Origin: Ligustrum vulgare
Taxonomy: Eukaryota; Streptophyta; Magnoliopsida; Lamiales; Oleaceae
Direction: 5' to 3'
Assembly: GCA_963555705.1 (NCBI GenBank)
Contig: OY743184.1
Coordinates: 32,064,614 to 32,128,613 of the forward strand
DNA: 64,000 nucleotides
Positions 9,601 to 62,652 of the stretch are shown here, in pieces (position 1 is the stretch's first letter; each line of letters opens with the position of its first letter). The notes below the pieces were generated by a model. It saw only the letters and a list, made by a program, of their open reading frames with translations, was not told the DNA's origin and ran no database searches. A program made the translations under genes and the position numbers.

Positions 9601-11929
9601 GAAGGTGTAGCGCCCCGAGTTCCGTAAAACCCAGGACTCCACTTCGTCCTCTAAACTAACTATTTAACAAAATATTGCGAAAATAAACTAAATTTTAAAT
9701 ATCACATTCATTTGGAAAATTTGCAACGATAACTCAAATTTAAATAAATTTACTTGAAAACATTCCATAAAATTTCAAATCTTGACAATTTTGGCTAACA
9801 AAGTTTAATAAACTCGACTTTCAAAATAACTTAAAATTTAATGCTTAACATCACTGCCTCTCATTCGCCACCATCTCCGAAATCTGCAAATGTTATTAAA
9901 ATAACATAATGAGTATTTTAAAAGAAATACCCAGTAGACTTATCGTTAATAATTAATTTACAAGTTAATTGAACATGTAATTATGCAAATAATGCAATGA
10001 CATTCTCTTCTTAATCATAGGCATCACATAGTGAATGCAAATGAACATATTCTTGTCTTATGCATATAAATTATGACATGCATAACATAATTTCTCTTCT
10101 TATCTCGTAAAAGATATTTTTGTCTTGTCTCATGCAATTAAACATATAAATCACGTAAATCCACATAAAACATGCAATTATAATATAAACTAATTAGTGT
10201 GGGCGAATCTACCTCAATTTATCTCGAGTCACGTAAAAAATGGAGCTAGAAGTAATCTCAATCTCTAATCGTTCGCACGTGTCATCTTGCAAAAAATAGG
10301 AAATAAGCCTTGAATTAGTAATTCTAAATTTAAAGTTTTAAAATGATAAAGTAAAATTTAGGGACTAAATTGGAAATTTATTAAAATTGAAATTGAAAGT
10401 TTAAGGACTGAAATAGACTTTTCGAAAGTAATGGGCTGAGAGTGAGGAACAAGAACTCCAGATGCCGATTTATTAATAACTGAAACCTTGGGACTGATTT
10501 GGTGAAATACTGAAACTTTTGGAATTGAAAATTATATATTTATAACAAAGAGGACTAAAATAACTTAATTTAAAAATAGGGGCTGAAATAAGAAACTTTA
10601 AAACTGAAGGGACAGTTTTAAACTATATTAAAACTTGAGGGTCTGAAATTAATTACTTTAAAAACTTGGGGCTGAGCTAAACGGTTTCTAAAACTTGGGG
10701 ACCAAATTTAAAAGGTTTAAAAGATGGGGCTTAAGGGCCAATTTTCCAAAAAGCAATTTTAAAACAAAATTTTACACTCTCTTTCTCATTCAAAAATCTG
10801 AGAAGTGAACGAGAAAGAGAGCGGTGGGCGACGGGAGCCCCTTCTCCAACTTCATGCCTCCGGTCGAAGGGTGGTATCAGCACCACCGTTGCGTGGTGGC
10901 GCCAGCGTGGGGTGGAGAGGCTATGGGTGAGTCTTTGGTGTAAAGAACAAGGCAAACCAAGGCTCGGTTAAGGCTTGGGGTGAAGATTTCTGGTGACAAA
11001 ATTCGGCGACAAGGGACGGTGGTCGAAGGTAAGTGGTTGGGGAACTTATTTCTTTGGCTTTGTGGGATCTTTGGGTTGATTTTGGGGTGAATTCGGCGGT
11101 TTTATGGAGGTGGCGACTTTGAGTGGTGGTTCGACTATGTGTTGTGTGTGATGGTTCAATTCGAGTGACTGAGGTGGCGGGTTGTGGTGTTGTGAAGGTT
11201 GATTTTGGTTCGGTAGTGGTGGTGCTAGGCTTGTGAAGATTGAGGATCGGTGAAGGGGCTGTGGTGTGCGAGTTTGGTGTTGGTGCAGACGGTGGTTGGG
11301 TGGTGATGTTTTGTGGTTCCGGTGGAGGTGCACATTGAAGGATACAGTGGCAATAGGCGATGGCTGGTTCAAGTCTTTGTGGAGTTTGGTAGTGTGTAGT
11401 GGCAGTGACAGTGCTGCATTTGGTGGTTGGTGATGAAGGTGGAATGGTGTGGTTGCAGTTGAATGTGTGTGAATGGCGATGGAGTAGGGGAAGTTTCCAT
11501 ACCAGGAAGTTGCTGTGATGTTGGTATGTGAAAGATGAAATCAGAAACTTCAGATTTGCAAGCAACAATGGATTATGGAGGTGGAATAAAAATGTTACCC
11601 AGACTTGGTTGCTCTGCTCTTGGCTGCGTGAGGATGGGAGAGTGATATGAACAGGGTATGTTTAAGGTATAATTTACTAGGATTTTAAGTCGGTTTAGGT
11701 TGCAAGAATTTTCTAATTTGGCTGAAATAATCAAAATTTGGACAACATAATTTTGGACTCAAATAATAAAATATTGGACTTAAATAAATTGGACTCAAAA
11801 TTATAAGGGTTAAGTACACAATTACACACATTTAAGTATGAAATTTTTTGAAATCAGGTAATTTGTAACTAATTACAAAAGTATCAAAATAATTTTCAAA
11901 ATCAGGTATTCTTTTAAAATCAGAAATAA

Positions 11930-13400
11930 GGTTTTGTAATTAATTACAATTGTAAATTTATTTCAATTTTATAATTAATTACAATTGTAACTTATTAATT
12001 AGTTAAACATTAGTGTAATTCGTACTTAATTATATTAGTATAATTTGTAATCAACAGCCACTACAACCGCGGTCGTCGGACTACCGTCGAAAATACAATA
12101 GTAACTTATATCAGTTTTGTAATTAATTACAATTGTAACTTTATTTCAATTTGTAATTAGTTACAATTGTAATTTTAAATAAAATTGTAATTAATTACCA
12201 CCACCACCAAATTTGTAACCAGTCACCGCCATAACGTCGAAAAATACAATAGTAACTTATTTCAGTTTTGTAATTAATTAATACAATATTAACTTATTTC
12301 AATTTTGTAATTAATTACAATTGTAACTTTATTTCAATTTGTAATTAGTTACAATTGTAATTATAATTTTAATTAAAATTGTAATAATTAATTACGACCA
12401 CCGATCACCACCTAATTTGTAACCAATCACTGCCACAATGTCGGAAATACAATAGTAACTTATTTCAATTTTGTAATTAATTACAATTGTAACTTTATTT
12501 CAATTTGTAATTAGTTACAATTGTAAATTTAACTGCAATTGCAATTAATTAACATCACCACCCCCGATCATCACCTAATTTGTAATCAGTCGCCGTTACA
12601 ACCACCGTTGGAAATACAATTGTAACTTTATTTCAATTTGTAATTATTACAATTGCAAATTTAACTACAATTTCAATTAATTAACATTACCACCACCAAT
12701 CACCACCTAATTTGTAATCAGTCACCGTCACAACCACCGTCGAAAATACAATTATAACTTTATTTTAATTTGTAATTAGTTACCATTGTAATTAGTTTGG
12801 TTACTTCCTTTAGATCTAACCATAAATCATCCCAAATTGAGGAAAAATACTTATTTTGTTTCCATGTGGCACCGTTCAGTGGATAACTACTCGGGTTAAG
12901 TTCATAATTACAAACATTTATATTTGAAAATTTTTGTAACCAGGTGGTTTGTAACTAATTACACAAATATTAAAATAATTATCAGAATCGAGTTTTTTTT
13001 TTTTAATTAGAATCAGGTTTTTGTAATTAATTACAATTGTAACTTTATTTCAATTTGTAATTAGTTACAATTATAATTAAAATTTTAATTAAAATTATAA
13101 TTAATTACCACCACCACCACCATTGATCACCACCTAATTTGTAACCAACCACCACTACATTATTTCAATTTTGTAATTAATTACAATTGTAATTTTATTT
13201 CAATTTGTAATTAGTTACAATTGTAATTTTAATTAAAATTGTAATTAATCACCACCACCACCATCGATCGCCGCCTAATTTGAAACCAGTCACCACCACC
13301 TTATTTCAGTTTTGTAATTAATTATAATTGTAACTTTATTTGTAATTAGTTACAATTGTAATTAATCAAGACCACCACCATCACCGATCACCACCAACAA
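11930..13400. repeat. AT-palindrome/ACC minisatellite
   Basis: About nine irregular units of roughly 145-165 bp. Each has a palindromic block (TTGTAATTAATTACAATTG), a second block ATTTGTAATTAGTTACAATTG, an (ACC)n run and a tail like TTTGTAACCAGTCACC. Clear unit starts lie near 11935, 12112, 12302, 12469, 12630, 13018, 13168 and 13311. A block with the unit's flank (11803-11935) recurs at 12892-13020, so a larger duplication overlies the array. It can form many hairpins. Confidence 0.8.
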
Positions 13401-15546: not shown

Positions 15547-15656
15547 ATATTTCTTTACATGGAAATACTAGAAAATGTCTGGGCTACATAGGGGGTTGTT
15601 GAACATAGGCAGCTACCCCCCCAAACCCAATTACAAAAATACATACGTATACGTAC

Positions 15657-15658
<2 letters not shown>

Positions 15659-15738
<80 letters not shown>

Positions 15739-15767
15739 AATTTTAAATTATTTACTTGAGATTTGGG

Positions 15768-15854
<87 letters not shown>

Positions 15855-15937
15855 TGAATTCATACATGTTCATGTGTGTGCATTAAAAGTGTTTGTGCAT
15901 GGTGTTCGGGTGAGTGTAGTGAGCGACTCTAGGGGAT

Positions 15938-18631: not shown

Positions 18632-18926
18632 TGCTCTGTAGCGACCAAGAATTTTTACGCGATTAATAATTATTTTAATAGAAAATCGTGTCGCTACTAT
18701 TTCACCCATTTTTATTAAGTTAACGCCACGACGTATTCGTATAGCCAAGTCAAGAAATAATCGAGATCGTTCGATTTTAAATTAAATTCCGAATTTCTAA
18801 AAATATCTCCATTCTCTTGATTTAAAGTATATTAAGTCCAAGTACTTAATTCAATGTTATCCCAATATTTATTTGTACAAAAATTACTTTTATTATTTAA
18901 ATTAAGAAAATATATGCAAGCATGAG

Positions 18927-19420
18927 AGGTTCCATTATATATAATAATTATGAGAATCTTAATTTAATAAATATGGAAAAGTATATAAATGGTTGATAGA
19001 TTCCATTATATGTAATCATGAAGAGCATAATATTTGTATAAATATGGAAAAGTATATGAATGAATTATATACTCCATTATATATAATCATGAAGAGCATA
19101 ATATTTGTATAAATATGGAAAAGTATATGAATGATTGATAAGACTCCATTATATGTAATCATGAAGAGCATAATATTTGTATAAATATGGAAAAGTATAT
19201 GAATGAATTATATACTCCATTATATATAATCATGAAGAGCATAATATTTGTATAAATATGGAAAAGTATATGAATGATTGATAAGACTCCATTATATGTA
19301 ATCATGAAGAGCATAATATTTGTATAAATATGGAAAAGTATATGAATGATTTATATACTCCATTATATATAATCATGAAGAGCATATTATTTGTATAAAT
19401 ATGGAAAAGTATATGAATGG
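18927..19420 (+). repeat. 71-bp tandem array in the LTR (also 25347-25840)
   Basis: About seven units containing ATAAATATGGAAAAGTATAT, TCCATTATATATAAT and CATGAAGAGCATAATATT. Two unit types alternate (GAATTATATACTCC and GATTGATAAGACTCC), giving a roughly 143-bp higher-order dimer. Its position in the upstream third of the LTR would fit a U3 enhancer array. Confidence 0.88.
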
Positions 19421-19645
19421 TGCTTTACTTTAAGAAAATGATGTGTTAAAATTAATAGAATTGAATGATTATGTTTACAATATGCCAACTTTATACATCT
19501 ATTTAAACCCATCTCTTTTACACACAACTCTACACATATACACTTATTTCCAATCTCTTGACAAAATCCACAAGTAAGAGAAATTCAAGGTGGTCAAGAA
19601 AGTTTTGGTCCATTTACTACTACACTTCATTTTAATCTTTTAAAA

Positions 19646-19868
19646 GGTAAGTATATCTTATGTTTTTATGAAAAGTAAGTATGTTTTTATGAAAGGTAAA
19701 TACACCTTATGTTTTTATGAAAAGTAAGTATGTTTTTATGACAAGTAAGTATATCTTATGTTTTTATGAAAAGTAAGTATGTTTTTATGAAAGGTAAATA
19801 CACCTTATGTTTTTATGAAAAGTAAGTATGTTTTTATGACAAGTAAGTATATCTTATGTTTTTATGAA
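19646..19868 (+). repeat. Second LTR repeat block (also 26066-26288)
   Basis: Two copies of a roughly 109-bp unit made of smaller AAGTAAGTATGTTTTTATGA/CTTATGTTTTTATGAAA sub-repeats. No coding meaning is apparent. Confidence 0.85.
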
Positions 19869-20384
19869 AATGTTTGAATCATTGCTATGAAATCAATCTC
19901 ACAAGATTGTTATGGGTTCCATATGATATGTTTATGATTATGCTAAGGGGACCGGAGTTTAGTAGCGCTACACATAAGAATTCTTGCCATTTAAGTTCGG
20001 TAAAATTCTTGTGTCTCCCTATGTTTATGAGTATTTCGATCCTATCCTATGTTATGATGAAGATGATCCATATGCTTTCAAAAGAAAATTTATGCTTGGT
20101 ATACTTACTGGGATTTTATAAATCTCACTCCACGATATTTACCATTTTCAGATAATTGAAGGTTCGAGGCGGTCAACATGGAAGTGGCAAAAGTGGTTAA
20201 GATTGATGAGATAATTATGTTGAACTTTATGTAAGAAAATTATGTTCTAATTTTATTCACCAATAAAATTATGGGATTCTAATTATTCTTTTGAATAATT
20301 TTACATTACTATTTAAGTCTCGATAATATGATATGAGTCACTTTTAGTGGCACTCGAATGGTCGAGAATTCGGGTCGTCACAGT

Positions 20385-20396
20385 TGGTATCAGAGC
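20385..20396 (+). promoter_or_regulatory. Primer binding site, initiator Met-tRNA
   Basis: TGGTATCAGAGC, a perfect match to the usual plant site, two bases after the 5' LTR end. Confidence 0.9.
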
Positions 20397-22330: not shown

Positions 22331-22406
22331 ACACACAAGAGTCACATTGGAAAGAAATACATGAAACACGCAAAATCAAAAGAAAGCAACATGGGAAATT
22401 CCTCAA

Positions 22407-22631
22407 ATTGAGAGATGTGTTTCCGGAGTAGCCGTATCCTACCACCTCTGACCTTTTGAGGAAATAAAGAAACCTTCAAAGAGGTGTGTTTCGAGAGTAA
22501 GAATACTCCGTAATCTTCCACCTGGAACCTTTGAGGTACACACAAGATTTAAACATTAAGGAAAATCCTAGGAAATTAGAGGGGTGTCTCGAGAGTAAGA
22601 ATACTCCGTACTCTACCCCCACCTATTCTAA
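22407..22631 (-). repeat. Three-fold repeat after LOG, copy 1
   Basis: Units at about 22573-22631, 22478-22536 and 22407-22461. On the minus strand each has GGTGG, then GAGTACGGAGTATTCTTACT or a variant, then CGA(A/G)ACACACCTCT. GAGTA/TACTC can pair as a small hairpin. The same three units in the same order follow LOG in copy 2 (43300-43520), so they belong to the module. Function unknown; a 3' UTR structure or processing signal is possible. Confidence 0.8.
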
Positions 22632-22634
22632 GAT

Positions 22635-23288
22635 TCATAAAGTTAAGTTTACATTAACCGGACTCCATTTTCGCTTGATTCCCCTTCCTTGCGACCAATC
22701 TATCTTAACCCCTGCTGGATCTTGTATTGAGATATATGACTGCAGCTTATCCAGTAGTTCATCAATAGTAGGAGCAGAAATAAGAAGTCTTCTGGAAAAT
22801 GGAGAGATGAATCCCTGTTCCACAGCATAATCAAGAAAGGTTAACAAACCATCAAAGAAATTGTTAACATTCAGAAGCCCAATAGGCTTAGTATGGAGAT
22901 CTAGTTGAGCCCACGAGGTAATGTTAAAGATTTCTTCTAAGGTACCAAAACCTCCGGGCAGGGCTATAAAGGCATCAGAACCATATAGCATACAAGTTAT
23001 GCGTTCATGGATGGATAAGGTTTGAACTTCATGCCCTCGTGTTTTGCCTGCAACATCTACCAAAGGGACAGGTATGACACCGATTACTTTTGATTTCTCT
23101 GCAAGAGCAGATTGGGAAACACAACCCATTAGACCACTGCTACCACCCCCATACACAAGAGTGATACCTTTTTCCCCCAGTTTCTTTCCAAGATCTACGG
23201 CCGTTTCTAGATAACTGAAGCCTTTCCCCACTTTTGATCCACAAAATACACAAATAGTTTTGATCTGTCGAAGTTTTGGTGCTTCCAT
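22635..23288 (-). CDS. LOG: LONELY GUY-type cytokinin-activating enzyme
   Basis: An intact, intronless 217-aa protein. LOG enzymes (cytokinin riboside 5'-monophosphate phosphoribohydrolase) release active free-base cytokinin in one step in cytosol and nucleus. Visible features: ICVFCGSKVGKG at 12-23, nucleotide-binding YGGGSSGLMG at 46-55, HER with the catalytic Arg at 96, and the signature PGGFGTLEE at 111-119 with catalytic Glu119, 23 residues later as in the family. The usual MAR before SDAFIALPGG is MLY. The core has normal length; the C-terminus (about 190-217) is a divergent basic tail. Plant LOG genes normally have several introns, so this is a retrocopy. The start is the conserved MEAP. 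It may be transcribed from its own TTTAAATAG-containing leader. Confidence 0.9.
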   Translation of the reverse strand: MEAPKLRQIKTICVFCGSKVGKGFSYLETAVDLGKKLGEKGITLVYGGGSSGLMGCVSQSALAEKSKVIGVIPVPLVDVAGKTRGHEVQTLSIHERITCMLYGSDAFIALPGGFGTLEEIFNITSWAQLDLHTKPIGLLNVNNFFDGLLTFLDYAVEQGFISPFSRRLLISAPTIDELLDKLQSYISIQDPAGVKIDWSQGRGIKRKWSPVNVNLTL

Positions 23289-23360
23289 CTTTGATAGTAT
23301 AGAAGAGGAAACTTACGAAGAAGATGTGATTTTGGGATGCCTGAACTATGAAATATGTTT

Positions 23361-23374
23361 GGCTATTTAAAGCC
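23361..23374 (-). promoter_or_regulatory. TATA-like motif upstream of LOG
   Basis: On the minus strand, GGCTTTAAATAGCC lies 73 bases upstream of the LOG start codon. Copy 2 keeps TTTAAATAGCC at 42885-42895, 74 bases before its LOG start, followed by a pyrimidine-rich leader in both. Conservation between decayed and intact copies suggests a promoter or subgenomic-type signal; expression is not shown. Confidence 0.4.
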
Positions 23375-23584
23375 GAAAAAATTTACTGTTTTTGATTGAT
23401 TATGAAAAAGTAAAGATTTACTTTTGACAAAATCGGCCAACTTTTGACTGTTTTACCAAAGATATCACCTTTCGGTGATTTATTTCCAGCTTTATCAAAA
23501 CTCGAGAAAGGAAAATATATTTTATTTCCAAAACGCGTGAAAGAAAACAGCAAAATATTTTAAATGTGTATCAAGAGATTTACC

Positions 23585-24136
23585 TTATATCATTGTTGAA
23601 CTGCCAGAAGCCTCATTTTGTAAAACAGACTGGCAAACAGGATCTTTTGCTATTATATTTTGGAGACTATAACGATTTTTGTCCTCGTTAAACTGAGCGT
23701 ATAAGGAGAGAAGTTCACGTTGCACATAACCACTTGGGTGCGTCTCAAGAGTCAGTCGAATATCATCCAAAGACTCCTTACTCAGTCCACCCTTTATGAA
23801 TTTGATTTTATCATCCCGATTAGTAGAAGAATATCCTACTGTTTTGCAACGAGTATCACAGTTCCAACGAGCACATTTGTAGCAACCATTCAGCCTTTTT
23901 GCTCTTCGTTTCTTTGCGAAGGTGCTTTTGCCTAAACCAGGCATGTGCTTTGGAAATGTCATAGGTAATTCACCAGATAGTCGAACCTTTGCTTCGATCA
24001 ACCAGCGAACATCTTCTGAAACACCATGAGCCATTAGCAACCTCAATCTTTCGAGTCTTATTCGATAAATTTTCCTCAGATCATTCATTGGAAGACTGGA
24101 ATAATACTTGCGAATGTTTGTAAGAATGATATCCAT
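23585..24136 (-). CDS. Virus-like zinc-knuckle nucleic-acid-binding ORF
   Basis: 183 aa from the Met at 24136. The same frame is open to a Met at 24184 (199 aa), but copy 2 starts at the position of 24136, and a conserved TTTAAATA motif lies between the two Mets. Seen (numbering from 24184): a helix-rich basic region at 22-75, GLGKSTFAKKRRAKR at 83-97, then Cys101, Cys104, Cys109 and Cys113 (CxxC-x4-C-x3-C), then a hydrophilic tail. A GxSxxAKxRRA basic run directly before such a knuckle is characteristic of the small Cys-rich nucleic-acid-binding proteins of Betaflexiviridae, so an endogenous viral origin is likely. The N-terminal part is longer than I expect for those proteins. An unknown plant zinc-finger protein is the alternative. 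No other viral gene was found nearby. Confidence 0.55.
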   Translation of the reverse strand: MDIILTNIRKYYSSLPMNDLRKIYRIRLERLRLLMAHGVSEDVRWLIEAKVRLSGELPMTFPKHMPGLGKSTFAKKRRAKRLNGCYKCARWNCDTRCKTVGYSSTNRDDKIKFIKGGLSKESLDDIRLTLETHPSGYVQRELLSLYAQFNEDKNRYSLQNIIAKDPVCQSVLQNEASGSSTMI

Positions 24137-24170
24137 GTTTTTGATGGATCTAACCTCTTCCCAGCATGAA

Positions 24171-24181
24171 CTATTTAAAAG
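24171..24181 (-). promoter_or_regulatory. TATA-like motif upstream of virus-like ORF
   Basis: CTTTTAAATAG on the minus strand, about 35 bases before the Met at 24136. The counterpart in copy 2 is TTTAAATA at 42107-42114. The same core occurs upstream of LOG in both copies, so the two ORFs share a similar upstream signal. Confidence 0.35.
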
Positions 24182-25056
24182 CATTAAGGATCGGAGGGAA
24201 TCCGCGTGATATTGATTCCAGCAAGAAAGCGCGGAATAGAATAATGGAAAAGAGGGAACAAGAGTTTATGCGCCGTTTACTTTCTTGATAAAAGGAAGAT
24301 TTGATGATGACGGGATTTGAGATATGGAATATTTTCTTAGATTTTGGGTACTGATATTTTGATATAATAATCAAGGTATAGAAATAATACGGGGATACGT
24401 GAAAGTGAAATAAGGACTGTATTGAATCAGGATTAATAAGTTTGTGCAAGTGAAAGGAATACCTTACGGGAAATGTTATGATATTTGAGTTAAGAATTTT
24501 AATTATTTGGGAGATATTTGTTTATTGAATTTTGCAGAAATTTTGGGTTACAAATATTGTAAAGATAAACTGATGATTATGTTGATATGTGAATAACATG
24601 TTTGGGTATATTACATAGAGAATATTCAGGTAATCGTTTTAATTATTTTGGGATATTTGGTGATAAGAAGAAATGACAAATTATTATGGTATGATATGAT
24701 AGTAAAGATTTATTGAAATTTTAGAGATATTAATACGAATATTTGAGGTTACATGATACGATAAGTGACAGGTTACATGAGTACTACAAGATATGATGAA
24801 ATATCACATACGATTGGAAATTTTCATTTTGAGTCAGAATTTATGAGTAGACACATATGTCTATTATTGATAAGAAAAGTACATGTTCTTAAGAAAACAA
24901 AGAGATGCATTTAGTAAAAGTCCAGTGGGTTAGATATTATAATGATGAGATTACTAAGAGAAAGAAAGAAGAGAAGAGATTCTGATTAAGTGTTCAGAAA
25001 TCATAAGATCAAGTAAGTTTAATTTCGAGGACGAAATTATTTTAAGGGGGTAAGTT

Positions 25057-26802
25057 TGTAGCGACCAAGAATTTTTACGCGATTAATAATTATTTTAATA
25101 GAAAATCGTGTCGCTACTATTTCACCCATTTTTATTAAGTTAACGCCACGACGTATTCGTATAGCCAAGTCAAGAAATAATCGAGATCGTTCGATTTTAA
25201 ATTAAATTCCGAATTTCTAAAAATATCTCCATTCTCTTGATTTAAAGTATATTAAGTCCAAGTACTTAATTCAATGTTATCCCAATATTTATTTGTACAA
25301 AAATTACTTTTATTATTTAAATTAAGAAAATATATGCAAGCATGAGAGGTTCCATTATATATAATAATTATGAGAATCTTAATTTAATAAATATGGAAAA
25401 GTATATAAATGGTTGATAGATTCCATTATATGTAATCATGAAGAGCATAATATTTGTATAAATATGGAAAAGTATATGAATGAATTATATACTCCATTAT
25501 ATATAATCATGAAGAGCATAATATTTGTATAAATATGGAAAAGTATATGAATGATTGATAAGACTCCATTATATGTAATCATGAAGAGCATAATATTTGT
25601 ATAAATATGGAAAAGTATATGAATGAATTATATACTCCATTATATATAATCATGAAGAGCATAATATTTGTATAAATATGGAAAAGTATATGAATGATTG
25701 ATAAGACTCCATTATATGTAATCATGAAGAGCATAATATTTGTATAAATATGGAAAAGTATATGAATGATTTATATACTCCATTATATATAATCATGAAG
25801 AGCATATTATTTGTATAAATATGGAAAAGTATATGAATGGTGCTTTACTTTAAGAAAATGATGTGTTAAAATTAATAGAATTGAATGATTATGTTTACAA
25901 TATGCCAACTTTATACATCTATTTAAACCCATCTCTTTTACACACAACTCTACACATATACACTTATTTCCAATCTCTTGACAAAATCCACAAGTAAGAG
26001 AAATTCAAGGTGGTCAAGAAAGTTTTGGTCCATTTACTACTACACTTCATTTTAATCTTTTAAAAGGTAAGTATATCTTATGTTTTTATGAAAAGTAAGT
26101 ATGTTTTTATGAAAGGTAAATACACCTTATGTTTTTATGAAAAGTAAGTATGTTTTTATGACAAGTAAGTATATCTTATGTTTTTATGAAAAGTAAGTAT
26201 GTTTTTATGAAAGGTAAATACACCTTATGTTTTTATGAAAAGTAAGTATGTTTTTATGACAAGTAAGTATATCTTATGTTTTTATGAAAATGTTTGAATC
26301 ATTGCTATGAAATCAATCTCACAAGATTGTTATGGGTTCCATATGATATGTTTATGATTATGCTAAGGGGACCGGAGTTTAGTAGCGCTACACATAAGAA
26401 TTCTTGCCATTTAAGTTCGGTAAAATTCTTGTGTCTCCCTATGTTTATGAGTATTTCGATCCTATCCTATGTTATGATGAAGATGATCCATATGCTTTCA
26501 AAAGAAAATTTATGCTTGGTATACTTACTGGGATTTTATAAATCTCACTCCACGATATTTACCATTTTCAGATAATTGAAGGTTCGAGGCGGTCAACATG
26601 GAAGTGGCAAAAGTGGTTAAGATTGATGAGATAATTATGTTGAACTTTATGTAAGAAAATTATGTTCTAATTTTATTCACCAATAAAATTATGGGATTCT
26701 AATTATTCTTTTGAATAATTTTACATTACTATTTAAGTCTCGATAATATGATATGAGTCACTTTTAGTGGCACTCGAATGGTCGAGAATTCGGGTCGTCA
26801 CA
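25057..26802 (+). repeat. 3' LTR of element 1
   Basis: Line-by-line identical to the 5' LTR at +6420 bp. It is preceded by TTTAAGGGGG (25041-25050), the polypurine tract, itself in a GAGGACGAAATTATTTTAAG context common just before the 3' LTR of plant chromovirus-type Gypsy elements. Confidence 0.95.
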
Positions 26803-26807
26803 TGCTC

Positions 26808-38927: not shown

Positions 38928-39159
38928 TGTTGTGAAACTATCAAAATCCTAACAACTAAGAAGAGAGAAATGGAGAGAGCTTAGAGAGAAGGAGGAGAAT
39001 TCTTTTTTGATCAAGAATTGGTGCACTTCATTACAATGAATATAGGCCATTTTATAGAAAAATATAGGAGTTAAATATAAGTCATTAATACACTAAATAT
39101 AGTAAATATTAGGTAATATTGGATGTGATGTAATGAAATTAGGTAATGATTTCATAACA
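38928..39159 (-). repeat. 3' LTR of element 2
   Basis: 232 bp. It differs from the partner LTR at about seven positions (for example GAAGAGAG against GAAAAGAG and TATTAGGTAA against TATTATGTAA), roughly 3%, so this insertion is older than element 1. Confidence 0.9.
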
Positions 39160-39194
39160 CTCCCCATTTAATGACTTATTGCTCAATTGCTCAA

Positions 39195-40010
39195 TTGTCT
39201 GCATCGTTAAAACCTTGATAAGAAAACCCAGTGGGATAAAACTTGAGCGAAGGAAAAAGAGTACAGCTGCTCCCCTTGATGTTAGCCATCATTAATCATT
39301 GAGTCTAATATCCAAAATGACATCAATGATAAGTAGTACAAATCATGTACTGGAAACTTCGAATTATGAAGTGCTGAAGTGCTTCATTGCTTCATTGCTT
39401 TATTGCTTCAGTGCTTTTAATGCTTTAGTGCTGCCTTGCTTTAGGTCTTCAGTGCTGCCTTGCTTTAGGTCTGCCTCGTTAAAACCTTGTCAGTAAAACC
39501 CAATGGGACAAAATCTGAACGAAGGAAAAAGAGTACAGCCGCTGCCTCGTTAAAACCTTGTCAGGAAAACCCTGTGGGACAAAAACCTGGACGAAGGAAA
39601 AAGAGTACAGCATGACAGCATGATTCTCCCCCTGAAGTGTGCAATCAAGTATTTCATGAACCTTTTGAATAATGATATCATCTTTCGTCTGGAATATGTA
39701 TATATGAAAATCTTCTTGTGTGTAGCCGATATCATAACATTCTTCATAAGATGTGTATGATTTTCTTAATTTTGTTGATATCATTTCAGCACAATTTAAA
39801 GAGAGAGCTTGTTGTTGAATAACTTGCAAATAGCTGTGACAATGTCTCAAAAACCTTGCTAGAAAAACCCTGTGGGACAAAACCTTAGCGAAGGGAAAAA
39901 GAGTAAATTATTCTCATTGATACGCCATAATTGTTCCATAATTGCTGCCTCATTAAAAACCTTACTAGGAAAACCCTGTGGGACAAAACCTCAGTTAAGG
40001 GAAAAAGAGT
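39195..40010 (-). repeat. Dispersed roughly 60-bp repeats near the 3' end of element 2
   Basis: Five copies, at about 39205-39266, 39475-39535, 39543-39610, 39848-39905 and 39952-40013. The plus strand has TTAAAACCTTGTCAG, AAAACCC(T/A)GTGGGACAAAA and CGAAGGAAAAAGAGTA. They surround a GCTTCATTGCTTCATTGC-type microsatellite (39370-39475). ORFs on the minus strand over them are by-products. Confidence 0.8.
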
Positions 40011-42147
40011 GCAGTGCGTATTTGTTCCCTTCATAGGAATATCATAAGTATATTAATGCAATCTCAAATTATTTCATCAAACATATATTTTGTGATGAGC
40101 TTTTATAAATAATTTATAACTCATTTATGAAGTCATAGCTCATTTATGATGTACTGAACATGTTATACCAAGCAATGTTTAGTTAGTTGACTGATTGCAT
40201 TACTCAAATCTAGAATTGATTCACTTTTATCAAAATCTAGAATTCACTTCTGATGAATAATTAAATATTCATTTTCAAATTCACTTATGGTGAATATTCA
40301 TTTTCCAAATTCATTTTCCCGGTGGATAATATAATTTTGCATATTGAAAATCAATTGCATGCCCAAATATTCAAATATAATAATAGTACACTCAAATTTC
40401 ATTTTCAACATATTATATTATGGGGTTATATGTATCATATCATTCTTCATGTGATTTTATTTTAAGAATCACATTTCATTCTATAATGATATTATTTTGG
40501 GCAAATTGAATCTTTCAATGATTTATACATATACGTTCTTGCACTTTATAAACTGCAATTTCTAATTTGCAGGAGCATAATCAATCATTGAAATAGATAT
40601 CAATTTCGACATATAATCTATAATCATTTCACTTGAAATCCCAACGTACCGCGATCAATTGGTACATCAAAGAAAACTCCCAAAGTACCGAGATGAGAAT
40701 CACACTTTTTGATCTCACTCATTGGTATATCAAAGAGCTCAAACTAGTGAATTTAGACTATAGTCTATCCACCATATTTTATGCCAGTTTTATGAAAAAT
40801 TTTGCACGCAACTAGTCGTCTTTTACGACTGTGTAATATTTTTCATTTGTATAAATAACTATTGGCATTACACATTTAAGTGTTTGGACTTCAGGTCCTA
40901 TAACAATAATCCCTATTATTGGGATTTTATATTTTGCCAAAGTATTATAATTTTATCAACCTCATTTTCATAAGAGGGTTGTTTATGTATGTAGTCGACT
41001 TATTTATCGATTCCATTTTATGTCAATATAAACATAACATAGAGAGATCTCTTTGTATATTTTATCATCAGGCCTGAATCTCTTATCATTTAATTATGTC
41101 CCTTTTACTCACTATGAGTATTTAGCCTCAAAGGGATCATCTCAATTATTCAAGAGATATTTGTTTTTGAATTCGATTGTCATTATGCTTCAGGCATAAT
41201 TACGCTTTAAGCTTGATCACGCTTCATGCGTGTTATTGTTTAATTTCCCCATAATATTCAAAAATCTTGTATTATATCAGTCGGCTAATAATGCCGCAAC
41301 ACATGTCATTCATAATTATGGATATAATCATAATATTATATCTAAGTGCGTTTTGTTGGAGTGTATATAGATATCGCACCTTTTAGAAATCATAAAGCTT
41401 TACAAGCTAATTTTTATTTCATTTTATTGACATGTTTGTATGTAGAATATTGCTGCATAAGAAATATTTATATTCAAATTGTTCTCATAGCAAATAACTT
41501 GAGGCTATTAATCTGCTAAATCATTAGCAATATAATATTCTATTATCTCAACTAATTCGTATAATCATTAATAACTTTAAGATATATTCATGCTAGCATT
41601 TATTACTTTGCTCGTAATATCATTACTTGAGCAAATAATCAGTCATTCATTTTCTTAGTGAGATAATTAATTTGCTTTTGAGAACAAGCAGCAATGATAA
41701 CTTGTTAACCTGAACAATCTTCTAGATCTTTAATGAATGTCATTTTGCATTCTCAATAAATCTCATTATTGAATTGGAATCTAACCAATCATTATAGAAC
41801 TTCTGGTTCAGCAAGATATTTCATTTTTACATATGTATGAACTTCTGGTTCAATACAGTATTCATTTAATCAGTATGTATTTCTGTATAGTTCAAATCAG
41901 TATACTTTTATTACTTTTAGTATACCGAAAAAATCAGGTACAATATCCAAGGAAATATCTCATGATCTCAATCTTGTCGCCAAATCTTCCCTTATTTCGA
42001 AAAAGGTAATGACGCATTATCTCATTGTTCCCACCTTTTCAATAATTTATTCCATTATTTCTTGATGGAATCGATATCACTGACACGCGGAGCGCTCCTT
42101 TACGCGTTTAAATATATCATTTGGGAAGAGATTAGATCCATAAAAAA

Positions 42148-42692
42148 ATGGATGTTATATTATCAAATATTCGAAAATATTATTCTAATCTTCCGGTAAA
42201 TGTTTTGAAAAAGATTTACCGAGTTCGACTTGAAAGATTGAGGCTGCTGATGGATCAAGGCTTTCCAGAAGATGTTCGTTGGTTGATCGAAGCAAAAGTT
42301 CGATTAGCTGGTGAATTACCAAATTCATTTTCTAAACACATGCCGGTTTAGGTAAGAGTACTTTTGCAAAGAAACGAAGAGCAAAAAGGCTTAACGGTTG
42401 ATACAAATGTGCTCGTTGGACATGTGATACTCGTTGCAAATCAGTAGGATATTCTTCTAGAAATCGGGATGATAAAATCAATTTCATTAAGGATGGACTG
42501 AGTAAGGAGTCATTGGATGATATCCGATTAACTCTTGAGACGCACCCAAGTGGGTATGTGCAACGTGAGCTCCTTTCCTTATATGCTCAATTTAACGAGG
42601 ATAAAAACCGTTATAGTCTCAAAAATACAGTAGCAAAAGATCCTGTTTGCCAGGCTGTTATAAACAATGATGTTTTGGCTATTCAGCATTGA
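42148..42692 (+). pseudogene. Virus-like zinc-knuckle ORF, broken copy
   Basis: Starts at the position of the internal Met of copy 1 and is open for 67 codons, to a stop at 42349-42351 caused by a one-base deletion near 42345. Homology continues in the next frame through the basic run. The first Cys codon of the knuckle is a TGA at 42399-42401. It ends at 42692 with a different, shorter C-terminus than copy 1. Two independent lesions make it non-functional. Confidence 0.75.
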
Positions 42693-42884
42693 TACAAGGT
42701 AAATCAGTATATTGTGTGTATATATTTTTGCACATAAAATATTTTCATGTTTCATTTCTCGAGTATTGATAAAGTGTTTTGAAAAATCACCGAAAGGTAA
42801 GCTTTATCAAAAGTAGTGTAATTTAGTCAGAATTAGGTTTTCACTTTTTCAAAAGATGAGTAGTAAATAGTGAAGTTTTTCAAG

Positions 42885-42895
42885 TTTAAATAGCC
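42885..42895 (+). promoter_or_regulatory. TATA-like motif upstream of broken LOG
   Basis: TTTAAATAGCC, conserved with copy 1 in sequence and in distance to the LOG start. Confidence 0.35.
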
Positions 42896-42968
42896 AATGA
42901 TTTTCACAATTTCATGCATCCCAAAATATCATTTTCTCATAAGTTTTTCCTTCCTTATATTCTCAAAG

Positions 42969-43293
42969 ATGGAAGGACCAAAATTTCGACAGATCAAAAC
43001 TATCTGTTTATTTTGTAGATCAACTGGATCTCCATACTAAGCCTACTGGGCTTTTAAGTGTTAACAATTTCTTTGATGGTTTGCTAACATTTCTTGATTA
43101 TGCTGTGGAACAGGGATTCATCTCTCCATTTTCTAGGAGAATCCTTATTTCTGCTCCTACTATCGAGGAACTGCTGGATAAGTTGCAATCATATGTCCCC
43201 ATACAAGATCCAGCAGGAGTTAAGATAGATTGGTCGCAAGGAAGGGGAATCAAGCGAAAATGGAGTCCGGTTAATGTAAACTTAACTTTGTGA
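42969..43293 (+). pseudogene. LOG, internally deleted copy
   Basis: Starts ATGGAAGGACC (MEGPKFRQIKTIC) and keeps 16-17 codons. It then jumps at about 43018-43026 to codon 128-130 of copy 1 and continues in another frame to the same C-terminus (…KRKWSPVNVNLTL, stop at 43291). About 110 codons are lost, including the glycine-rich loop, the catalytic Arg and PGGxGTxxE. The parent sequences on both sides of the junction share TCAA, so a microhomology deletion is likely. Confidence 0.88.
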
Positions 43294-43299
43294 ATCCTA

Positions 43300-43520
43300 G
43301 AATAGATGGTGGTAGAGTACGGAGTATTCTTACTCTTGAGACACACCTTAAATTTCTAGGATTTTATCAATGTTTAATCTTGTGTACCTCAAAGATAGGT
43401 GGTAGAGTACAGAGTATCCTTACTCTTGAAACACACCTCTTTGAGTGTTTCTTTATGTCCTCAAAAGTTCAGATGTGGTAGGATACGGCTACTCCCGAAA
43501 CACATCTCTTACTTTGAGGA
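43300..43520 (+). repeat. Three-fold repeat after LOG, copy 2
   Basis: Units at about 43300-43357, 43394-43446 and 43471-43520, each with GGTGGTAGAGTAC or GTGGTAGGATACGG and ACACA(C/T)CT. They correspond one to one with the units of copy 1. Confidence 0.8.
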
Positions 43521-44189
43521 TCATAAATGTTTCCTCCTTTTATGTATGACTTGTTTTATGCTTCTTCAGGAGCAATAATAATAATAACATTTTAGTATGT
43601 TTAGATGATAATTTTTACTTCTTCTAGAGTAAATATGTACTTCTTCTGGAATACATAATTGCTCGTGCAAGAACTTTTTCAAATACTTATCATCTAATAT
43701 TCATCTCATAATACTGATGAGATTATTTTCACATTAGCTATGTCCATGCTATCATGTGATATTATCTTATCATACATCAACATTCTCTTGTTGGATAATC
43801 TATTTTTATCTATCTTTTCAATACAGATAATGGTAACTTCTTGTACCGTTTGATAAAATATTTTTTATTAACATCTATCAACCTTTTGGTATTGATGACT
43901 TTTTATCAACATTTACCAACTTTTGGTAATGATAACTTCTGGTATCATTTGATAAAATATTTTCTAACTTTAGTATTGATAACTTCTGGTATCATTTAAT
44001 GAAATATTTAATAACAATAATATCAATAATAATACTGGGGTTATACCACCACGTATATATGTTGACAACAACCTCTATTATGTTAGAATTAACCAACAAC
44101 TGAGGTGTTTCTGAAATAATATAAAAATTGAATATATGTAATGTATTCCGTAAACCGACCATATAGGCGGTGTCTACATAATGAAATAA

Positions 44190-44345
44190 TTACCTTTCAT
44201 GAGTGATCGAGTCATATCCTCCAGTCAAGGTATTCATAATAGTGATCAAGTCATATCGTCAAATCCAGTCAAGGTATAGTGATCGAGTCATATCGTCAAA
44301 TCCAGTCAAGGTACTCATAATAGTCCAATCTGTTGCGGTATAAAT
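44190..44345 (+). repeat. Short tandem repeats in element 2
   Basis: GATCGAGTCATATCGTC-type and AATCCAGTCAAGGTA-type phrases recur three times within 150 bp. No coding meaning is apparent. Confidence 0.7.
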
Positions 44346-45104
44346 TCAGTCCATAATAACTCAATCCGTCACGGTATGACAATGATTATTTTTAATTATA
44401 CTTTGTTTAAAATCTTTAATTTATCTTGTTGATCACATATTAATCGTTAATTTTCGATTAATTTACTTTTATGTATTACCAAGGGTAAAATTGTCCATAT
44501 TTTAATATGTTGCTCATATGAATAAATCAAAACCGTCAATAGGTTTGAAATTTAATTTATAACAAACTTACTTTTGGTCCGAAGTTCAAAATCCCGTCGG
44601 AAGTGCTTCAAAAACGGTTTTTAAGAAAACCGCCACGTTCGATCGCCGGAAAATCTCAGAACTGCACAAACCAAAAAAGTAAGATCATAGAAAAATCAAG
44701 AACGTCGATATGAACAAACTTCCTGTTGACGTCATCGCCAGAATAGTCTCCACGCGCCGTAACGACGTCTGCGCGTGGTCCTCACGCGCTTCACGCGCCA
44801 CCGCGCCGGTGCTGGTGACGTCGACACGCGCCGGTTCGGAAGAATCGTCCGGTCGCCGTGGTCATGGATCTGGTCTCCGATCATCGTTTGGATATACGGT
44901 TTGGCGTGAATTTGGTTTGGAAGTTTCGGATTATACAATTTCTTCAATTTTTCTACGTATTTGGAATTGATCTTCTAATCTATGATGTATAAATGATGAT
45001 TAATAATAATCTGGTTTCTGATACAGGGGTTCATCATTTAGATGCAACTGTAGAGCATACTCCCGTCATATTACTCAATAGAAAAGATATTCGTGCTGAT
45101 AACG

Positions 45105-45336
45105 TGTTGTGAAACTATCAAAATCCTAACAACTAAGAAAAGAGAAATGGAGAGAGCTTAGAGAGAAGGAGGAGAATTCTTTCTTGATCAAGAATTGGTG
45201 CACTTCATTACAATGAATATAGGCCTATTTATAGGAAAATATAGGAGTTAAATATAAGTCATTAATACATTAAATATAGTAAATATTATGTAATATTGGA
45301 TGTGATGTAATGAAATTAGGTAATGATTTCATAACA
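45105..45336 (-). repeat. 5' LTR of element 2
   Basis: 232 bp. A TATA-like CCTATTTATAGG lies near 45222-45233, at the point where LTR transcription could start. The CTCAC duplication follows directly. Confidence 0.9.
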
Positions 45337-61625: not shown

Positions 61626-61651
61626 TCCATTTATATTTCTCCGCGAACATT

Positions 61652-61652
<1 letters not shown>

Positions 61653-61708
<56 letters not shown>

Positions 61709-61867
61709 TCCCTTTGGTCTCTCTTTCGTTACTCCACTACACCCTCCACCACGCCACCTACGTCGAGCCTCCACCCGCCCGCCGCCACCTCCACCTCCAC
61801 CGGCCACTTTGTCCTACATTGTAAGACACATTTCCTCATGTGTGTATATATGTGTGTATATGTATGC

Positions 61868-61933
<66 letters not shown>

Positions 61934-61935
61934 AA
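61653..61935 (+). promoter_or_regulatory. CACTA leader with (CT)n and (TA)n
   Basis: (CT)n at about 61655-61700 and a CACC/CCGCC-rich stretch to about 61805 resemble a plant 5' UTR; (TA)n follows at 61877-61930. The transposase leader intron probably extends from here to an AG before 62653. Confidence 0.5.
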
Positions 61936-62652
61936 CTTTGAATATGTATCTATCTTTGTGTATATATATATATATATATTTTAGGATAAATTTATTGACT
62001 AAATGTTAATGTTAATATGTATCTATATATTTGTTAGTATATATATATAAATTTGTTAATTACATGTTAATATGTATAAATGTGTTAGTTAAATGTTAAT
62101 ATATATAAATTTGGATGTTAAATTTATATTGTTGATTTTAAGTTAGTAGATAGATACATTGTAATATTTCAAGTATTGGAGTTATATTGAAATTATGAGA
62201 TATTAAGTTTATGAAATCTTAGCTTGACTTTTTAGGAATTGGGAATAGATTTTGGATTAAACTTGGAGTAGTTGATGATGTTAAAGTTTAATTGGAGTTA
62301 TATTTGAGTTTTGAATATGTCGAGGTTGAACATTTTGGTTTATTGTGGCATTTTTATTCTTCCTACAGGTTGGTTAAGTCCAATTTATAGGGGATGTTCT
62401 GCCGAATTTTTTGTAGGATTTTGTAAATAAAAAATGAGAATTATAATTTAAAGTGATTTTCACTAGTACAGAATTGACCGTACTAAATAAATAATTACAT
62501 AGAATATAATCATCCTAATAAAATTATGAAGTTTCCAATCGTATTTGATTTCAAATATTAATATATAGTTGGTTTAAGGTTGTATCATGAAAAATATTAA
62601 TTCAAAACTAATAATTTTTTATAATTATATCTTCACATATAGGTCATTAGAT

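Follow-up and report, generated by a model that had tools for sequence, protein, structure and literature searches.

A NABP–LOG gene pair carried as a cassette by several LTR-retrotransposon families of Ligustrum vulgare

It is an open question what the extra open reading frames (ORFs) of plant LTR retrotransposons do, and a 2020 review of such aORFs argues, in its relevant passages, from the absence of similarity to other transposable elements or viruses (PMC7264820). A LOG-domain ORF is among those described: YgdH (LOG) is an extra ORF of consensus elements from two Citrus species and, in unfiltered results, from Populus trichocarpa (Alvarado-Marchena et al. 2022, PMC9289625), a paper that cites Steinbauerova 2011 for an earlier record of LOG in LTR elements. 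In bdelloid rotifers, one retroelement lineage acquired its env from RNA viruses (PMC5408684). Flexivirus cysteine-rich proteins (CRPs) act as silencing suppressors, and the chrysanthemum virus B CRP is also a transcription factor that causes hyperplasia (PMC12172455). The initial annotation of the locus analysed here knew of no described retrotransposon that links LOG to a viral-type nucleic-acid-binding protein (NABP). Within the literature searched, this stands for the NABP partner and for the pair, but not for LOG alone, which had been published earlier; the same search turned up no description of such a partner, of a shared cassette or of the LxLxL tail described below.

The window element and its genes

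The whole stretch analysed, hereafter the window, comprises 64,000 nt of the 1.385-Gb genome of Ligustrum vulgare (GCA_963555705.1, contig OY743184.1, positions 32,064,614–32,128,613, forward strand). It contains a young LTR element (family A) whose 5′ LTR (18637–20382, +) and 3′ LTR (25057–26802, +) are 1746 bp long and 100% identical. The 5-bp target-site duplication (TSD) TGCTC flanks them (left 18632–18636, right 26803–26807). With a primer-binding site (PBS; TGGTATCAGAGC, 20385–20396, +), which we take to be of the methionine-tRNA type, and a polypurine tract (PPT; AAGGGGGTAAG, 25044–25054, +), the element has the features of an LTR retrotransposon, namely two LTRs with TG..CA ends, TSD, PBS and PPT. 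LOG and NABP both lie antisense between these LTRs, as initially annotated, and are the only stop-to-stop frames of at least 130 aa in a 14-kb slice around the element. With no gag-pol frame of at least 130 aa, the element may be a non-autonomous LTR retrotransposon, in which small gag/pol remnants are possible.

The retrotransposon-borne LOG (retro-LOG) is an intronless ORF of 217 aa (22635–23288, −; ORF calling and Pfam) ending in KRKWSPVNVNLTL. It matches PF03641 with an E-value of 1.3e-33 and 116.4 bits (curated cut-off 27), and At2g37210 at 1.7e-57. It keeps HERITCM...LPGGFGTLEE, so that the PGGxGTxxE motif and the upstream arginine, both of which we assume to have their usual roles in LOG enzymes, are present. 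The protein is predicted to be a cytokinin riboside 5′-monophosphate phosphoribohydrolase.

The NABP ORF as called spans 23585–24184 (−; 199 aa). The Met kept between families, however, is at 24133 and gives 182 aa (23585–24133, −), the length of many relatives. The 17 residues ahead of it (in-frame extension 24134–24184, −; ORF calling and alignment) are absent from other families, and a TATA-like box was seen by eye within this extension (24171–24181). A basic stretch, KKRRAKR, precedes a C-x2-C-x4-C-x3-C finger, and the ORF exceeds the cut-offs of PF05515 Viral_NABP (32.4 bits, cut-off 23) and PF01623 Carla_C4 (23.0 bits, cut-off 20.9), with the viral models covering residues 76–136. An intact intronless LOG beside a virus-type NABP was thus correctly annotated, both ORFs passing Pfam cut-offs. 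Relatives (best 120 of 413 matches) occur in several plant genera among the matches listed; alignment and folding were run on 54 sequences, made up of 53 of these 120 matches plus the window ORF. The structure model is poor (pLDDT 68.8, pTM 0.37), and with this query Foldseek returned 27 matches to viral models, the best at E 0.072 and none below 1e-3. Thirteen of the first 15 are named, 11 of these 13 being labelled silencing suppressor or NABP, all of them weak matches. Their source viruses are presumably flexiviruses.

The two genes are separated by a 296-bp spacer (23289–23584, −), in which an alignment of 12 copies revealed the palindrome-like stretches CCGAAAGGTG and AAAGTAAATCTTTACTTT (imperfect in family B). 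A candidate TATA-like box ahead of LOG (23361–23374, −) was picked by eye. Three copies of a ~43-nt repeat lie 3′ of LOG (22410–22624, −) and are found in families A, B and C; an RNA element in these repeats was considered and dropped, because their predicted folding is not significant (z −0.96) and Rfam contains nothing that matches them.

Copies, families and selection

The pair had been annotated as a two-copy unit with a conserved second copy 20 kb away. A second copy does exist (42148–43293, +), ~20 kb from the first, but it is decayed, its NABP remnant (42148–42692, +) being split into two ORFs and its LOG remnant (42969–43293, +) carrying an internal deletion. It also occupies a different LTR element (family C, 38928–45336, − strand, TSD CTCAC), with LTRs at 38928–39159 (−) and 45105–45336 (−), the latter adjoined by the PBS TTATCAGCACGA. 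Moreover, the pair is not restricted to two copies but is a high-copy module in the genome. NABP adjoins LOG at all 28 loci fetched around LOG matches (23 non-overlapping places). The window's type was amplified recently, since every one of the 150 NABP matches that were scored shows 100% identity across 199 aa.

Twenty large loci of ten kb were selected by hand among 150 places. Of these loci, 18 have near-identical direct repeats and align to the LTR families. Families A, B and C align with one another only over the ~2-kb module, short fragments aside; NABP, spacer, LOG and 3′ repeats form a cassette common to at least three LTR-retrotransposon families. The module is antisense to PBS and PPT in every element checked, i.e., the window element (A), L019 and L013 (B), and L026, L020 and the second window copy (C). 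At 10 of 13 family B loci, a gag-like ORF lies on the strand opposite to the module, and the one scanned is a copia gag (PF14223, 3.4e-25). A pol fragment in L022 was rejected as an element part because it lies outside the element.

Three divergent loci of gypsy type (L034, L037 and L038) were hand-picked from ten. L038, from the L. vulgare genome, carries a Ty3/gypsy integrase followed downstream by NABP and LOG, all in sense, and in L034 and L037 NABP and then LOG are likewise in sense. The sole match in one scan of prokaryote genome contigs, L029, is a plant-like contig inside a bacterial MAG, with an integrase and then NABP in sense. An inherited module within a retrotransposon, as initially proposed, is thereby established more firmly than claimed, by three LTR families and by the sense arrangement downstream of the integrase in L038. 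The gypsy-type integrase neighbours may belong to the Athila lineage; in two Athila-like elements, LOGL4-like ORFs were reportedly found by Steinbauerova et al. in 2011. The NABP of L029 exceeds only the PF05515 cut-off, that of L038 falls narrowly below both (PF05515 and PF01623), and two cysteines of the finger are missing in L037. After the NABP stop, a similar peptide, FKPxLDVKxEEDVS, is found in L029, L034 and P0086, for which possible read-through was considered.

Four Orobanche gene models contain both NABP and LOG domains. Contigs of equal size in both match lists (8723, 4511, 1558 and 1524) hint at linkage in other plants but were not counted, since short contigs can match in size by accident and some of these could not accommodate the two genes; the count is therefore limited to the Orobanche models. 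The pair is older than the elements of families A, B and C, given that relatives of NABP are found across several plant genera and that LTR elements were already known to carry LOG. Two LOG trees (the first from 36 of 120 retro-LOG matches, 22 of 120 host matches and 10 own copies; the second run with 42 LOG and 37 NABP rows) disagree on the branching order of A, B and C, and the NABP tree disagrees with the LOG tree of the same run.

Comparisons between families show purifying selection on both ORFs (median dN/dS 0.09–0.19). For LOG the medians are 0.089–0.120 at dS 0.37–0.49, and for NABP 0.143–0.185 at dS 0.53–0.67. Values within families are mostly higher (medians 0.11–0.33), which fits drift of many copies once they have inserted. 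The calculation excluded pairs whose dS was 0.02 or lower, any codon containing a stop or gap, and copies with fewer than 215 (LOG) or 170 (NABP) residues matched.

Active site and C-terminal tail of retro-LOGs

LOG matches were taken as the best 120 of 6878 and, in a further listing, the best 120 of 7941. Among the matches listed, an LxLxL C-terminal end is found in 94 of 120 retro-LOGs vs 0 of 120 host LOGs, and a basic pair between residues −18 and −5 in 105/120 vs 4/120. Searches of the L. vulgare genome for host LOGs returned retro-LOGs only with a long query and almost only retro-LOGs with a short one; host LOGs were recovered with a C-terminal-exon query, and none of the seven tails inspected by eye (7 of 10 exon matches) has LxLxL. 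When 111 of the 120 retro-LOGs (length 205–232) were clustered to 27 representatives (<75% identity), leucine was found at −1, −3 and −5 in 24, 24 and 23 of them, and LxLxL in 21; the leucines are kept, while the neighbouring residues vary. The tail looks like an EAR-type gene-repression (corepressor) signal. The window LOG has a weaker variant, V.V.L.L: its C-terminus is VNVNL[TS]L, which is not a strict LxLxL, as is that of 19 of the 23 further full-length matches fetched, and the other four stop early. L034 and L037 end in DLELRL/DLELKL, and P0139, P0146, P0174 and P0217 have a LOG domain without the tail.

Among the matches listed, PGGxGTxxE is present in 107 of 120 retro-LOGs and 108 of 120 host LOGs, and the arginine-containing pattern is matched in 101/120 vs 120/120. 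In L034, L037 and L038, PGGxGTxxE is altered and the HxR position lacks arginine. Catalysis has probably been lost in these three, and a single function for all retro-LOGs is not assured.

Interpretation and comparison with known systems

The occurrence of the pair in several unrelated families, together with apparent selection, suggests that the elements manipulate the plant with it. On sequence grounds, we favour, with a probability of about 0.6, a portable accessory or counter-defence cassette of plant LTR elements, for which silencing suppression, cytokinin activation and corepressor recruitment would be the contributions. Expressed from its own promoters, the cassette might act through NABP, which belongs to the flexivirus family of cysteine-rich silencing suppressors and would weaken RNA silencing directed at the element or serve as a nuclear regulator. 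The retro-LOG would raise active cytokinin and thereby promote division of the cells that copy the element, and through its basic LxLxL tail it would recruit TOPLESS-type corepressors. Elements acquiring the cassette would gain, so that it would spread between unrelated LTR families, and carriers that are non-autonomous would rely on autonomous relatives for mobilisation in trans. A more specific version, in which a suppressor-family protein shared with RNA viruses and a dual-function LOG with a TOPLESS-recruiting tail form a host-manipulation cassette swapped between gypsy- and copia-type families, is put forward tentatively, the odds being somewhat against it.

In an alternative reading, LOG is kept not for cytokinin but as a nuclear corepressor adaptor that works through its EAR tail, and NABP provides nucleic-acid binding. 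The tails of L034 and L037, kept despite an altered active-site motif, and the enrichment of the basic pair in the retro-LOGs listed point that way, but PGGxGTxxE is as frequent in them as in host LOGs and is present in the window copy, and four proteins have the LOG domain without the tail; we consider this unlikely. Somewhat less likely still is a passive passenger, host and viral sequences captured by template switching and conserved through recent family bursts alone. Gene capture by LTR elements is known (PMC7264820), window-type copies are almost identical, the window element has no gag or pol ORF of at least 130 aa, and dN/dS is mostly higher within families. Against a functionless passenger stand between-family dN/dS far below 1 at dS 0.37–0.67, the recurrence of pair and spacer in three LTR families and in sense at three divergent loci, and the kept tail leucines amid varying neighbours.

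The initial annotation had also allowed for an integrated piece of an unknown virus, here an RNA or DNA virus with LOG beside NABP. NABP does belong to a flexivirus protein family, and plant chromosomes do contain RNA-virus sequences (PMC3136472), yet the copies sit within LTR-element sequence, with direct repeats and LTR-family alignment at 18 of 20 loci, and a gypsy integrase is the neighbour in L029 and L038. Neither replicase nor coat protein was found among 20 ORFs or proteins scanned with Pfam (a subset of all ORFs), and two scans of viral contigs gave no relative. Four extra ORFs given to Pfam were assigned to no family. We regard this origin as highly improbable.

As an accessory or counter-defence cassette, the pair would connect the RNA-virus and retrotransposon gene pools of plants. 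It offers two extra ORFs with recognisable relatives, testable biochemistry and conserved pairing in recently amplified elements, and in NABP it provides a specific protein that may be a silencing suppressor encoded by a retrotransposon. It may also explain dozens of LOG-like gene models in some plant genomes; Reevesia pubescens accounts for ~38 of the 120 LOG matches listed.

The proposed swapping would resemble the way in which accessory genes or oncogenes are carried by retroviruses. The LOG/YgdH extra ORFs share with this system a LOG-domain ORF as an additional LTR-retrotransposon gene, whereas the NABP partner, the C-terminal LxLxL and sharing across families are unmentioned in the pertinent parts of that report (PMC9289625). 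The aORF-3R genes of Grande, RIRE2 and Retand are likewise antisense and lie beyond the coding region, ahead of the 3′ LTR; Grande has its own promoter for them, a regulatory role is suspected, and several of the proteins have nucleic-acid-binding or nuclear features. However, they belong to other protein families, e.g., TRP28 and SMC, and the relevant passages describe no two-gene unit common to unrelated families (PMC7264820, PMC11963269). In the ORF3 modules of bdelloid rotifers, the same accessory ORF types also recur across unrelated retroelement lineages, but these are animal elements with other genes (env, esterase and exonuclease), and the sections concerned name no paired cassette (PMC5408684). 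Finally, flexivirus NABP/CRPs likewise have a cysteine finger preceded by a basic stretch and belong to the same Pfam families, PF05515/PF01623 (PMC12172455), whereas the protein reported here is retrotransposon-encoded, has 182 aa and carries a conserved C-terminal part beyond the viral Pfam match (76–136).

Carriers and copy number of the gene pair

Both open reading frames (ORFs) of the initial annotation were found as described and pass the curated Pfam cut-offs: a LOG ORF for a cytokinin-activating enzyme (22635–23288) and an ORF for a flexivirus-type nucleic-acid-binding protein, NABP (23585–24184), both on the minus strand. They lie antisense within an LTR element of family A that has LTRs at 18637–20382 and 25057–26802, the target site duplication (TSD) TGCTC, a PBS and a PPT. 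Since its LTRs are identical (100%), the element inserted recently. The claimed second copy of the module (NABP, 296-bp spacer, LOG and 3' repeats) is present at 42148–43293, but it is a decayed relative, with a broken NABP and an internal stretch missing from LOG, and it resides in a different LTR element, on the minus strand, with 232-bp LTRs (97% identical over 235 aligned bases) and the TSD CTCAC. The family A LTRs also contain two tandem arrays (25275–26339 and 18855–19919; periods of ~72 and ~49 nt). Elsewhere in the window, repeats with a TAATTAATTACAATTGTAA core occupy 11904–13341, the largest family having six copies, and long CT/GT microsatellites with related repeats occur in inverted orientation at 15600–15880 and 61630–62034.

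In all 28 loci picked by their LOG (L001–L028; 23 non-overlapping places, two being adjacent pieces of one array), NABP lies upstream of LOG on the same strand, truncated in L025. A direct repeat of at least 97% identity is present in 18 of 20 ten-kb loci; it is weaker in L017 and was not found inside the ten-kb piece of L028. The carriers fall into family A (window element, L022, and L016), family B (thirteen loci of the L019 type), and family C (second window copy, L014, L017, L020, L025, and L026). Module identity across families is 78–90% at the nucleotide level, mostly 82–88%, and next to nothing outside the module is alignable, the exceptions being fragments resembling A-type LTRs in L009 and L018 (81–91%, up to ~330 nt) and a window-flank piece of 190–230 nt that matches L019 and L028 (74–77%). 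Eight elements, L018 and L022 among them, were inspected for PBS and PPT; in the six with both ends or a clear PBS (window A; L013 and L019 of B; the second window copy, L020, and L026 of C), the module is antisense. In 10 of the 13 B loci, a gag-like ORF has the reverse orientation relative to the module, and that of L009, the one scanned, is a copia gag (PF14223).

The genome copy count proposed initially was made in the 1.385-Gb plant assembly containing the window. Searches gave 7995 LOG and 9401 NABP first-look candidates, which are distinct from verified copies. All 150 scored LOG candidates were above the cut-off, one with an internal stop, and all 150 scored NABP candidates were 100% identical across 199 aa; that the latter are all on contigs C1–C9 probably reflects the number scored. 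For either gene, 150 is a lower bound. Among the matches listed and compared by eye, a LOG and a NABP match share a strand and are 576 bases apart, counted between the matched stretches, in at least six places (near C1:83.11, C2:43.55, C4:30.07, C9:8.30, C9:40.86, and C9:42.98 Mb). Some module loci form tandem arrays that repeat about every 6–7 kb. Whole-element tandem arrays with periods near 6–6.7 kb were seen at G000:C2:24821734-24846566, C4:52284910-52297022, and C23:10311325-10338627. The gene pair is real, high-copy, and carried by several LTR families.

Module anatomy, selection and the virus-like partner

In an alignment of 12 copies inspected by eye, each gene is preceded by a TATA-like box, the spacer contains palindrome-like stretches (imperfect in B), and three repeats follow LOG on its 3' side. 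The Met common to the families in the NABP ORF is at 24133. Across 54 NABP sequences, a basic stretch and cysteines 101, 104, 109, and 113 (window ORF numbering) are nearly always kept. Median dN/dS between families is 0.089–0.120 for LOG and 0.143–0.185 for NABP; within families, it is 0.11–0.26 and 0.26–0.33, respectively. Stop codons occur in 4 of 24 LOG and 1 of 24 NABP sequences of this set. The gene pair is under purifying selection.

A Foldseek search of viral models with the low-confidence AlphaFold model of NABP returned nothing under 1e-3. Among the first 15 matches (all E > 1e-3), 13 are named, from viruses that we take to be flexiviruses, and 11 are labelled silencing suppressor or nucleic-acid-binding protein. 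According to passages of a 2025 paper (PMC12172455), cysteine-rich proteins of such viruses suppress silencing, and the one from chrysanthemum virus B is a transcription factor that induces hyperplasia. To find a viral factor that promotes growth next to a cytokinin enzyme is at most suggestive; the function of the pair is one that we infer.

Relatives in sense orientation

NABP has 413 relatives, and named genera among the 120 matches listed include Orobanche, Populus, Xanthoceras, and Acer. Four Orobanche proteins (P0018, P0020, P0022, and P0023) carry both Pfam domains in a precomputed table, confirmed for P0018 by a Pfam scan. A further NABP lies in contig DAIEQH010000041.1 (L029) of a public Candidatus Nomurabacteria MAG, taken for contamination because its DNA looks like a plant retrotransposon: a Ty3/gypsy-type integrase (PF00665, PF17921) is followed by NABP in sense, and LOG was not found in the remaining 1 kb. 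With this NABP as query, ten divergent copies (70–73% identity; four with a stop codon) appeared among 150 scored in the present genome.

Three of the ten were examined (L034, L037, and L038), of a gypsy-type lineage that is presumably Athila. Integrase, NABP, and LOG are all in sense in L038; its integrase is identified by 62.6% identity to that of L029, because the 201-aa piece matched no Pfam family. NABP and LOG are in sense in L034 and L037, with no integrase detected within the 7 kb examined, and the L037 NABP has lost two cysteines. We infer that the sense arrangement is older than the antisense one. A similar 264-aa ORF precedes NABP in reverse-complemented L034 (1434–2225) and L037 (1046–1837); Pfam gives no family above cut-off for the former. 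A peptide resembling FKPxLDVKxEEDVS follows the NABP stop in L029 (after 2344), L034 (reverse complement, 4032), and the related protein P0086, which has Trp in place of the stop and ends in LSLSL.

The LOG tail and comparison with known elements

In quick-method trees with SH-aLRT support, without bootstrap, of 68 and 42 proteins, host LOG1/3/4-type proteins are separated from retrotransposon-type LOGs (retro-LOGs) with support of 100. The two trees disagree on how families A, B, and C branch. The gypsy-type LOGs fall on the retro-LOG side, beside module LOGs and a Diospyros lotus protein (97; 42-protein tree). Among the matches listed, an exact LxLxL end, presumably an EAR motif, occurs in 94 of 120 retro-LOG and 0 of 120 host proteins, the former not all proven retrotransposon-borne and the latter representing one LOG type; 6 of the 120 host proteins have LxLxL elsewhere. 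A basic pair between residues −18 and −5 is likewise found in 105 of 120 versus 4 of 120. In 27 retro-LOG representatives (strict end in 21), entropy is 0.68, 0.68, and 0.83 bits at leucines −1, −3, and −5 and 2.50 and 2.37 bits at −2 and −4. From ten exon matches to host LOGs in this genome, seven tails were read by eye in translation (L035, L036, and L039–L043; L042 and L043 maybe incomplete), and none has an LxLxL-like end. Twenty of 24 full-length matches in this genome, window LOG included, end in VNVNLTL or VNVNLSL, and four have an early stop.

The LOGs of L034, L037, and L038 have lost the HxR arginine, and their active-site motif is now PGDFG[TA]LEQ. L034 and L037 retain a DLELRL/DLELKL end, DLELRL being what we take to be the SUPERMAN motif; the L038 tail differs and appears frame-shifted. 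Judging from these sequences, the tail may outlast the enzyme.

The claim that the linkage was undescribed stands in part: the open-licence literature searched yielded no treatment of the NABP–LOG pair, a retrotransposon NABP, or the retro-LOG EAR tail, but LOG as an extra ORF of LTR elements is already known, as the part consulted of PMC9289625 states. As far as searched, the paired cassette, viral-family partner, cross-family spread, and LOG tail are new. That LTR elements carry extra ORFs is not new in itself. The portion of Neumann 2019 consulted (PMC6317226) assigns different domains to the extra ORFs of gypsy lineages, and ORF modules common to several retroelement types are already known from rotifers, according to the portion consulted of PMC5408684.
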